A stretch of 64,000 nucleotides of DNA, from positions 62,001-126,000 of the forward strand of contig VGCE01000001.1 of assembly GCA_016870155.1 (NCBI GenBank), read 5' to 3'. How positions within the stretch are numbered: position 1 is the stretch's first letter; every line of letters begins with the position of its first letter. Positions 56,157 through 61,412 of this stretch are shown one piece after another. The position numbers and the translations under genes were made by a program. Below the pieces are notes generated by a model that did no database searches, was not told the origin of the DNA, and saw only the letters and a list, made by a program, of their open reading frames with translations. Source of the stretch: Actinomycetota bacterium. Its GTDB lineage: Bacteria; Actinomycetota; Thermoleophilia; Miltoncostaeales; Miltoncostaeaceae.

Positions 56157-56234
56157 ACCGCGCGGGCCGGACGGCGAACACGGCGTGTCACGCCGTTTGA
56201 GGACCGCCCGATTGACGCCGCGGAGCGTCCCCGG

Positions 56235-56240
56235 TATGGT
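56235..56240 (+). promoter_or_regulatory. Putative -10 box TATGGT ahead of the SAM riboswitch
   Basis: TATGGT lies just upstream of the first stem of the S-box RNA, so transcription would start near 56247. Confidence 0.45.
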
Positions 56241-56246
56241 CCTGAT

Positions 56247-56365
56247 CGCTTAACGCATCAAGAGCGGTGGAGGGACAGGCCCTTTGAAACCGCGGCAACC
56301 AGCGCGATAGCGCCAGGTGCCAATTCCTACAGGCATTCGTGCCTGGGAGATGCACGAGGCAAGCG
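56247..56365 (+). ncRNA. SAM-I (S-box) riboswitch aptamer
   Basis: The core matches the S-box consensus in order: AAGAGCGGTGGAGGGACAGG, GGCCCTTTGAAACCGCGGCA with the ACC that follows, then GGTGCCAATTCC and a closing GAGATGC. Stem P1 pairs GCATC (56255-56259) with GATGC (56349-56353), and an outer helix pairs CGCTT (56247-56251) with AAGCG (56361-56365). P3 is the GCGCGATAGCGC hairpin and P4 is CAGGCATTCGTGCCTG. This class binds S-adenosylmethionine and turns genes off when it is abundant. The 51 bases between aptamer and start contain CCCTCG and CTCCC runs that could pair with the CGAGAGGAGG Shine-Dalgarno region, suggesting translational control. Confidence 0.93.
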
Positions 56366-56416
56366 CTTCCCGATACGAAGCGCCCTCGGACTCCCGGCTA
56401 CGAGAGGAGGACGAGG

Positions 56417-57685
56417 ATGACGGCAGTGACAGGGCGGGCCACCGGCGCACGGGGCCTGCGATGCAAGGAATGCGGCGAGGAACTTCCGCTCGGGGCGTCG
56501 TACGCCTGCGAGTTCTGCTTCGGGCCGCTCGAGGTGGCCTACGACCGCGACGTACTCAGGGCCACCGTCACGCGCGAGTCGATCGAAGCCGGCCCTCCGT
56601 CCATCTGGCGGTATGCCGCCCTTTTGCCCTGCGCCCCCGAGGACCCCACCGCGGGCCTCCCGGTGGGGCTCAGCCCCCTCGTGCGGGCCCCGCGGCTGGC
56701 CGAGCGCCTCGGCCTCGGCGAGGTGTGGGTGAAGAACGAGACGGCGAATCCCACCCATTCGTTCAAGGATCGCGTGGTGAGCGTGGCGCTGCAGAAGGCC
56801 CGCGAGCTGGGCTACGAAGTGGCCGCATGCGCCTCCACGGGCAACTTGGCGCAGTCGGTGGCCGCCCACGCCGCCGCCGCCGGGATGAAGAGCTACGTGT
56901 TCGTGCCGGCCGACCTCGAGCACCAGAAGATCATCGCCACCGGCATCTACGGATGCACCCTCGTGGCGGTGGACGGCACGTACGACGATGTCAACCGCCT
57001 GTGCATGGAGCTGGCCGCCGACCGCCCCTGGGCATTCGTGAACGTCAACGTGCGCCCGTACTACAGCGAGGGCTCGAAGACGCTGGCGTACGAGACGGCG
57101 GAGCAACTGGGCTGGACCCTGCCCGACCGCTGCGTGGTGCCCATCGCCTCGGGGTCGCTCTACACCAAGATCCACCGGGGCTTCACGGAGCTCTTGGACC
57201 TCGGGCTGGTGGAGGGCGGCGTTCCCGCGATGAACGGCGCGCAGGCAGAGGGCTGTGGCCCCGTGGCCGCTGCATATGAAGCCGGGGTCGACTTCGTGTC
57301 TCCCGTGCGCCCCGAGACCATCGCCAAGAGCCTCGCCATCGGCAACCCGGCCGACGGGCTGTTCGCGCTCGACGTGGCGCGCGGCACCGGTGGTGGCATC
57401 GACGCGGTGACCGAGGAGGAGATCACCGATGGCATCGCCCTGCTGGCCGAGACCACCGGCGTCTTCACCGAGACCGCCGGGGGCGTGACCACCGCGGTGC
57501 TGACGCGCCTCGCCGAGCGCGGCGAGATCGGCCGCGACGAGCGCGTGGTCATCTACATCACCGGCGACGGGCTCAAGACCCTCGACGCCGTGGCCGAGCG
57601 GGTGGAGCCGGTGACCATCCGCCCGACGGTCGCCGAGTTCGAGGCCGCGGTATCCGCCACCTCGACCCTGGAGGTCGGGCGATGA
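56417..57685 (+). CDS. Threonine synthase-like PLP enzyme under SAM riboswitch control
   Basis: 422 residues, fold type II PLP enzyme related to ThrC. An N-terminal zinc ribbon (C16, C19, C31, C34: LRCKECG, CEFCFG) precedes the core. The PLP lysine is K117 in NPTHSFKDRV, where classical ThrC usually has a glycine before SFKDR; ACASTGNLAQSVAAHA and PIASGSLYTKIHRG follow. ATG is fixed by AGGAGG 6 bases upstream. Annotated as threonine synthase by similarity, but the S-box leader and the adjoining cysO gene (ATGA overlap) point to sulfur/methionine metabolism. It could use O-phosphohomoserine with a CysO thiocarboxylate to make homocysteine; this is inference. Confidence 0.8.
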   Translation: MTAVTGRATGARGLRCKECGEELPLGASYACEFCFGPLEVAYDRDVLRATVTRESIEAGPPSIWRYAALLPCAPEDPTAGLPVGLSPLVRAPRLAERLGLGEVWVKNETANPTHSFKDRVVSVALQKARELGYEVAACASTGNLAQSVAAHAAAAGMKSYVFVPADLEHQKIIATGIYGCTLVAVDGTYDDVNRLCMELAADRPWAFVNVNVRPYYSEGSKTLAYETAEQLGWTLPDRCVVPIASGSLYTKIHRGFTELLDLGLVEGGVPAMNGAQAEGCGPVAAAYEAGVDFVSPVRPETIAKSLAIGNPADGLFALDVARGTGGGIDAVTEEEITDGIALLAETTGVFTETAGGVTTAVLTRLAERGEIGRDERVVIYITGDGLKTLDAVAERVEPVTIRPTVAEFEAAVSATSTLEVGR

Positions 57686-57954
57686 GCGTGACCGTTCGCA
57701 TCCCCTCACCGCTGCGCCCGCTCACGGGCGGAGCCGGCACCGTGGAGTGCGACCCGGGTACGGTGGGCGCCATCATCGACGAGCTCGATGCCAACCACCC
57801 GGGGTTCAAGGACCGCGTCACGCAGGACGGCGAGCTTCGCCGGTTCGTGAACGTGTTCGTGGCCGGGCAGGACGTGCGGTTCGAGCAGGGCATCCAGACC
57901 GACGTCGCGGACGGCCAGGAGGTCACGATCCTCCCGGCGGTGGCCGGGGGCTGA
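57682..57954 (+). CDS. cysO: CysO-like sulfur carrier protein (MoaD/ThiS fold)
   Basis: 90-residue ubiquitin-like protein ending in the free diglycine AVAGG that is adenylated and converted to a thiocarboxylate. SVTVRIPSPLRPLTGG, LRRFVNVFVAGQDVRF and DGQEVTILPAVAGG resemble, from memory, mycobacterial CysO much more than MoaD of molybdopterin synthase. In mycobacteria CysO-COSH gives sulfur to CysM with O-phosphoserine and is released by the Mec protease. Neither cysM nor mec is present in this window; the partner gene is the ThrC-like enzyme. ATG overlaps its stop by 4 bases. Confidence 0.9.
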   Translation: MSVTVRIPSPLRPLTGGAGTVECDPGTVGAIIDELDANHPGFKDRVTQDGELRRFVNVFVAGQDVRFEQGIQTDVADGQEVTILPAVAGG

Positions 57955-59276: not shown

Positions 59277-59804
59277 ATGAGCGCCCAGCTCGCCCATGAC
59301 GCCTTCCATGCCGCCCTCAACGCCACCATCGCCGGTGACACCGGTCCGATGCACGCGATCTGGGCGATGGAGCACGAGGTGACCAAGCTCGGACCATTCG
59401 GGGGCATGCTCGTCGGCCGCCGGGCGGTGCTCGGCCAGTTCGACGCCGAGGCCGCGATGGGCATGAGCGGGATCATCGTCCCCGAGGACATCCACATGGG
59501 GGAGGGTGGTGACATGGCCTTCTCCTCATGCGTGGAGCGAGGCGTGGGCTTCCGCAGCGGCGACGGCAGCCCGGTCGATGTCCATCACCGCATCACGAAC
59601 GTGTTCATGCGCGAGGCCGGTGAGTGGCGCATCGTGCACCACCACATCGACCTCACTGCAGAACTGCGCTCCTGGCGCGGCGGTTCATCAGGCCAGCACA
59701 GCACGCGCGGCAGGATTCGAACCTGCGACCCCTGGCTCCGGAGGCCAGTGCTCTATCCACTGAGCTACGCGCGCTCGCGGGGGGAGTGTAGACACGCCGC
59801 GTAG
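59277..59804 (+). CDS. SnoaL/NTF2-like protein, frame running antisense through a tRNA gene
   Basis: 175 residues as read. Residues 1-140 form a single NTF2-like cone fold of the SnoaL/ketosteroid-isomerase type: FHAALNATIAGDTGPMHAIW, VLGQFDAEAAM, VHHRITNVFMREAGEWRIVH and HHIDLT. Such domains are often stress-linked or catalyse small rearrangements. The start is clear (ATG after GGAAGGAG). The natural end would be near SWRGG, but no stop occurs there; the frame continues antisense through the reverse tRNA-Arg and stops at 59802-59804. The last 30 residues are therefore a translation of the tRNA complement and probably not a conserved part. Confidence 0.7.
   Translation: MSAQLAHDAFHAALNATIAGDTGPMHAIWAMEHEVTKLGPFGGMLVGRRAVLGQFDAEAAMGMSGIIVPEDIHMGEGGDMAFSSCVERGVGFRSGDGSPVDVHHRITNVFMREAGEWRIVHHHIDLTAELRSWRGGSSGQHSTRGRIRTCDPWLRRPVLYPLSYARSRGECRHAA
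59702..59774 (-). tRNA. tRNA-Arg (anticodon CCG)
   Basis: The minus strand folds into a full cloverleaf: acceptor GCGCGCG paired with CGCGCGT (one G-U), D-arm GCTC-AGTGGATA-GAGC, anticodon stem CTGGC/GCCAG with loop CTCCGGA (anticodon CCG, reading CGG), and T-arm GCAGG-TTCGAAT-CCTGC. The CCA end is not encoded. No other tRNA is adjacent. Confidence 0.95.

Positions 59805-60866: not shown

Positions 60867-61408
<542 letters not shown>

Positions 61409-61412
<4 letters not shown>

Follow-up and report, generated by a model that had tools for sequence, protein, structure and literature searches.

A SAM riboswitch, a threonine synthase relative and a CysO-type sulfur carrier as a candidate protein-thiocarboxylate route to homocysteine

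In the actinobacterial DNA analysed here (the window, a stretch of 64,000 nucleotides), an S-box riboswitch leads into a gene for a threonine synthase relative, termed ThrCL, which is followed by a gene for a CysO-type sulfur carrier. ThrCL and CysO are a real and widely conserved regulatory and metabolic unit. From the observed genomic facts we infer, with a probability of roughly two in three, that ThrCL makes homocysteine from O-phosphohomoserine and CysO-thiocarboxylate. The pair's most probable role is that of a second homocysteine route based on a protein thiocarboxylate, running through a relative of threonine synthase. The first-pass annotation had proposed CysO-thiocarboxylate-dependent homocysteine synthesis by this ThrC homologue. 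The proposal is strengthened by a second thrC in the genome, coupling to S-box and CysO over five phyla, clusters with E1 and Mec genes, and complementarity to MetX, MetB and MetY, and is weakened by the loss of its argument from a missing glycine and by the presence of metX-metY in the window genome.

Leader, enzyme and carrier in the window

The near-consensus S-box noticed ahead of the ThrC-like gene is borne out by the Rfam covariance model RF00162, which matches a full-length SAM-I aptamer at window positions 56252..56356 (plus strand) with a score of 85.4 bits (gathering threshold 44.4; E 8.7e-19). This leader is the only S-box found by an Rfam search of the 1.81 Mb window assembly, and Rfam gave none for the metX and metY genes of the same genome. 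A consensus scan places a sigma-70-like promoter (TTGACG-17-TATGGT) at 56212..56240 (plus strand), with one pair of promoter-like hexamers found vs 0.0 in shuffles, which is by itself no proof of function. The whole leader folds with z = -4.4, and RNA folding predicts a hairpin at 56384..56416 (plus strand) that takes up the Shine-Dalgarno sequence AGGAGG (56405-56410) by pairing, with the ThrCL ATG directly after it. Since a leader scan found no terminator between the S-box and ThrCL and the predicted hairpin would mask the Shine-Dalgarno sequence, this structure is the likely expression platform and S-box control of ThrCL is probably translational.

The gene at 56417..57685 (plus strand) encodes a fold type II PLP enzyme of 422 aa with an N-terminal zinc ribbon. 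In profile searches it scores 267 bits against TIGR00260 (cut-off 167) and matches PALP with E 1.2e-67. Alignment places the zinc-ribbon cysteines C16, C19, C31 and C34 at 56462..56518 (plus strand), and all four are invariant among 39 aligned ThrCL relatives, so that the early description of a zinc-ribbon, threonine-synthase-like gene behind the S-box holds. The PLP-lysine motif NPTHSFKDRVV, also located by alignment, lies at 56747..56779 (plus strand); the lysine (K117) and the following DRVV are invariant across the same 39 relatives, in which DRV(V) in place of the DRG(M) of ThrC is an invariant difference. A divergent Thermoleophilia ThrCL (L167) reads DRGV, unlike these relatives. The first-pass annotation had read NPTHSFKDRV correctly and taken the absent glycine as a functional marker, but this argument was rejected because some family members keep that glycine: Acidimicrobiaceae orthologues read NPTGSFKDRVV, with G at position 114 where the window has H.

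The AlphaFold model of ThrCL (pLDDT 89.5) finds its nearest folds among threonine synthases. ThrCL shares the fold and the PLP lysine of canonical ThrC (TIGR00260; 2zsj, 1uim, 2d1f), at about 37% identity, but it differs in its zinc ribbon, S-box and CysO partner, and it forms a separate clade in the tree with branch support of 100. The substrate pocket differs as well. T88, S155 and R160 of Thermus thermophilus ThrC, which belong to the substrate pocket in ThrC structures, are replaced by L144, N211 and Y216, all invariant in the 39 relatives, and R213 is a further invariant residue that is new in ThrCL. GNT and NP.R are kept by canonical ThrC. By these alignments, the phosphate pocket of ThrCL is rebuilt relative to that of ThrC.

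The two enzymes coexist. In a class set of 199 Thermoleophilia genomes, where ThrCL was called at an identity of at least 55% or from clear fragments, ThrCL occurs in 109, and 106 of these 109 also carry canonical ThrC; nearly all named genomes tested have at least two TIGR00260 matches, typically canonical ThrC plus ThrCL. ThrCL as the sole ThrC was therefore rejected. A threonine synthase isozyme that came under SAM control by chance would agree with the score above the TIGR00260 cut-off and with the closest folds, but it is very improbable in view of the coexisting canonical enzyme and the invariant pocket substitutions, and it leaves the CysO partner unexplained.

The carrier gene (57682..57954, plus strand) overlaps ThrCL by 4 bases (ATGA) and encodes a 90-aa CysO-type protein (PF02597, E 4.5e-14) with the C-terminus ILPAVAGG. 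The product belongs to the ThiS fold family, and among solved structures it is closest to M. tuberculosis CysO (3dwg, E 3.5e-24), in agreement with the initial call of an overlapping CysO-type gene ending in AVAGG. Among 73 detected ThrCL-linked CysO proteins, 72 have GG at the end or 1-3 residues before it, and 25 carry 1-3 residues beyond GG. These extra residues suggest C-terminal trimming of CysO, perhaps by a JAMM protease. In the window genome, the ThrCL-linked CysO ends exactly at GG, unlike the CysM-linked CysO (L050 7721-7990; contig C7 of G000), which ends AMAGGAS, two residues past GG.

Conservation of the unit and its gene clusters

Scanning GTDB genomes gave at least 589 ThrCL relatives, and locus counts were made on the best 80 of these, all from named genomes. 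The best 80 span Actinomycetota, Chloroflexota, Nitrospirota, Nitrospinota and Aquificota. The order S-box, thrC-like gene, cysO seen in the window is conserved among them: a same-strand downstream CysO is present at 73 of the 80 loci, mostly less than 100 bases away, and an S-box lies upstream at 59 of the 80. Of the seven loci without a downstream CysO, three reach a contig end within 700 bases. The S-box was found at 19/19 Thermoleophilia ThrCL loci first tested and 8/8 further ones, as well as at all five Acidimicrobiaceae loci tested, vs 0/24 control loci in Rfam searches (11 paralogue loci, the canonical thrC of Acidimicrobium ferrooxidans and 12 further canonical thrC loci). No CysO was found adjoining the canonical ThrC or paralogue controls. 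At 13 non-actinobacterial ThrCL loci Rfam gave no S-box, and only a SAM-II riboswitch upstream of metK in Leptospirillum; ThrCL of Aquificota and Nitrospirota likewise has no adjacent S-box.

Related genes occur without these partners. A third ThrC-like clade (39-43% identity; STGNVGT, LRPFYAEGAKT) lacks S-box and CysO at L155, L156 and L159-L163, in some cases in the same genomes. Class family f3 has a second copy derived from ThrCL (43-46%, DANPTHSFKDRMA; L157 2873-4102, L158 1831-3132), which lies about 20 kb from ThrCL and lacks both S-box and CysO; in L157 it immediately follows a gene that probably encodes PEP carboxylase.

In several phyla the pair sits within larger sulfur-carrier clusters. 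Nitrospirota and Nitrospinota have the order CysM-MoeB-ThrCL-CysO-NIL-MoeB-Mec and Chloroflexota the order ThrCL-NIL-CysO, while in Leptospirillum (L114) the SAM-II riboswitch, metK, ahcY, cysM, moeB, thrCL and cysO follow one another in the same direction. The linkage to CysM, MoeB, Mec and NIL genes, and to metK-ahcY in Leptospirillum, thus ties ThrCL to sulfur-carrier chemistry and to the methionine/SAM cycle. By analogy, the E1 and Mec genes of these clusters suggest that the ThrCL-linked CysO is thiocarboxylated and donates sulfur. Stand-alone 79-aa NIL-domain proteins adjoin ThrCL-CysO in Nitrospirota, Nitrospinota, Chloroflexota and Nitriliruptoria (L120 8498-8734, L093 5368-5604, L099 8255-8491 and others), where they perhaps sense methionine or homocysteine. 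The DUF39 route to homocysteine likewise involves NIL-domain proteins (Price et al., 2018; PMC5764234).

The S-box also occurs at ThrCL loci with no adjacent CysO (L110, L131, and L167, L172 and L173 of class families f3/f8/f11), and therefore the carrier either works in trans at these loci or is not used in every case. L110, from Parafrankia colletiae, has three PF01053 enzymes in addition to its S-box ThrCL, and its carrier may act in trans. Such loci would suit an enzyme that makes homocysteine (or cystathionine) from O-phosphohomoserine with free sulfide or cysteine, CysO being merely a neighbour or a regulator, and both the S-box control and the filling of metabolic gaps described below would hold without CysO. 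This reading is unlikely, since CysO follows ThrCL at 73 of the best 80 of at least 589 loci in five phyla and, in Nitrospirota, the pair is clustered with genes for E1 and Mec; its cystathionine variant requires a beta-lyase, yet PF01053 is missing from 30 of 50 named ThrCL genomes. CysO-thiocarboxylate is preferred here as the donor.

The window assembly itself holds a broad set of related enzymes. The second, classical thrC that had been looked for lies in a hom-thrC-thrB cluster and encodes NPTGSFKDRG, and thus ThrCL is not needed for threonine. A moeZ-cysO-cysM-mec cluster elsewhere provides CysM with a CysO of its own, and the assembly further contains cysK and two trpB-like genes. Genes metY and then metX follow one another, and metX-metY recurs in many members of the window's family. 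Therefore ThrCL/CysO would be a parallel, SAM-controlled route in this genome, and not the only one. The search for metX, metY, cysM and a Mec-type gene thus succeeded, with all of them outside the ThrCL locus. The first-pass annotation had set against its own proposal the case that cysM and mec adjoin another cysO while the ThrCL-CysO pair is not conserved. The former is true, but because the pair is strongly conserved the objection fails as a whole, and the separate cluster was rejected as proof against ThrCL-CysO. In addition, a tRNA gene (59702-59774, minus strand) separates the ThrCL region from a cluster of pyrimidine genes (pyrR-like 60867-61412, with a pyrB-like gene downstream).

CysM is the known partner of CysO, and the resemblance of the ThrCL-linked carrier to M. 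tuberculosis CysO could point to a second CysO-dependent cysteine synthase acting on O-phosphoserine. This is quite improbable: in the window genome CysM is served by a separate cysO-mec cluster, in Nitrospirota clusters it adjoins ThrCL, a resemblance of ThrCL to CysM fails because threonine synthases rank first by both sequence and fold, and the absence of homocysteine enzymes from many carriers would go unexplained.

Genomes without the tested homocysteine enzymes

The screen covered MetX, PF01053 (MetB/MetY-type enzymes, with a strong match set at E 1e-70 or better) and HcyBio (DUF39, PF01837). ThrCL is present in 49 of the 55 Thermoleophilia genomes without MetX and without a strong PF01053 match, vs 60 of the 144 others (Fisher p 4e-10, in a test that ignores phylogeny). 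PF01053 is missing from 52 of the 109 Thermoleophilia ThrCL genomes. In family f6, 16 of 18 genomes carry ThrCL and none has MetX or PF01053. Among the 30 of 50 named ThrCL genomes without PF01053 are each of the five Aquificota tested and the majority of Nitrospira. HcyBio was found in none of 77 genomes tested, while positive-control genomes gave matches. ThrCL-CysO is thus widespread where the tested known homocysteine enzymes are absent, and it is therefore probably the missing step of methionine synthesis.

At least one further homocysteine pathway has been held to be undiscovered, and Aquifex aeolicus, Pyrolobus fumarii and Acidimicrobium ferrooxidans were named as organisms with the missing pathway (Price et al., 2018; PMC5764234). 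The autotroph A. ferrooxidans DSM 10331 (G255), for which the absence of PF01053 is taken from the same study (PMC5764234), has an S-box of 64.6 bits, ThrCL at 59% identity, CysO and, in addition, canonical ThrC. Aquificaceae, including an 'Aquifex aeolicus' MAG, also carry ThrCL, with an adjacent CysO in L085 and L097, and Nitrospira- and Leptospirillum-type genomes are among the carriers. Because the evidence from distribution is correlative, ThrCL/CysO could instead produce a different sulfur compound connected with methionine and SAM, with the genomes that lack MetX/MetY being auxotrophic for methionine or using another route. This is highly improbable, as A. ferrooxidans and other autotrophs are found among the carriers, together with Aquifex-, Nitrospira- and Leptospirillum-type genomes, and two carrier lineages are counted among the thermophilic autotrophs that miss a homocysteine pathway (Price et al., 2018; PMC5764234). 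A role in homocysteine synthesis remains the preferred reading.

Proposed chemistry and relation to known systems

When SAM is low, the S-box would free the ribosome-binding site, and the transcript would be that of a SAM-repressed homocysteine synthase. ThrB would supply O-phosphohomoserine, which ThrCL would bind. Threonine synthase removes phosphate from O-phosphohomoserine through a beta,gamma-unsaturated PLP intermediate, and CysM performs an analogous thiocarboxylate addition at C-beta with O-phosphoserine. By analogy with this established enzymology, ThrCL would eliminate phosphate to reach the same intermediate and then add sulfur at C-gamma in place of water at C-beta. The paired CysO would act as donor through its thiocarboxylated C-terminus, which an E1 of the MoeZ/MoeB type would charge, and a Mec-type JAMM protease would release homocysteine from its adduct with CysO. 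We know of no fold type II enzyme that performs gamma-replacement.

The system resembles CysO-CysM-Mec of M. tuberculosis in its CysO-type carrier with a C-terminal GG and its fold type II PLP enzyme and, in the clusters of ThrCL relatives, in its E1 and JAMM protease; a phosphorylated amino-acid acceptor is presumed. It differs in using a threonine synthase relative, in its SAM-riboswitch control and in its predicted product, homocysteine from O-phosphohomoserine. Wolinella succinogenes reportedly makes methionine by a protein-thiocarboxylate route with HcyS and MetY, as described by Krishnamoorthy and Begley in 2011. There, as would be the case for ThrCL-CysO, the sulfur of homocysteine comes from a ThiS/MoaD-like thiocarboxylate, but the enzyme that receives it is a sulfhydrylase of the PF01053 family with O-acetylhomoserine as substrate, whereas ThrCL is a fold type II PALP protein and PF01053 is not needed. 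The DUF39 (HcyBio)/NIL-ferredoxin pathway shares a NIL-domain protein with the ThrCL clusters of Nitrospirota and Chloroflexota; however, none of the 77 genomes tested has a DUF39 protein, and homoserine is not an intermediate of the DUF39 pathway. No description of a ThrC-CysO homocysteine system was found in the open literature, and an account in a closed journal or preprint may exist; threonine synthase goes unmentioned in previous surveys of ThiS/E1/JAB operons and S-box regulons.

On balance, the odds lean towards an undescribed pathway in which a fold type II enzyme of the ThrC superfamily performs gamma-replacement on O-phosphohomoserine with CysO-thiocarboxylate as donor and under SAM-riboswitch control; it would account for the gap in Aquifex and Acidimicrobium and probably serve Nitrospira, Leptospirillum and many Actinomycetota and Chloroflexota. 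If this is true, gamma-replacement would be new to fold type II PLP enzymes, and ubiquitin-like sulfur carriers would gain a new use. ThrCL-CysO offers a concrete two-gene candidate for the missing pathway in two of the lineages named by Price et al., as well as in nitrifiers and iron oxidisers. With the gene labelled 'threonine synthase', tools that do not consider ThrCL would predict methionine auxotrophy in such genomes.
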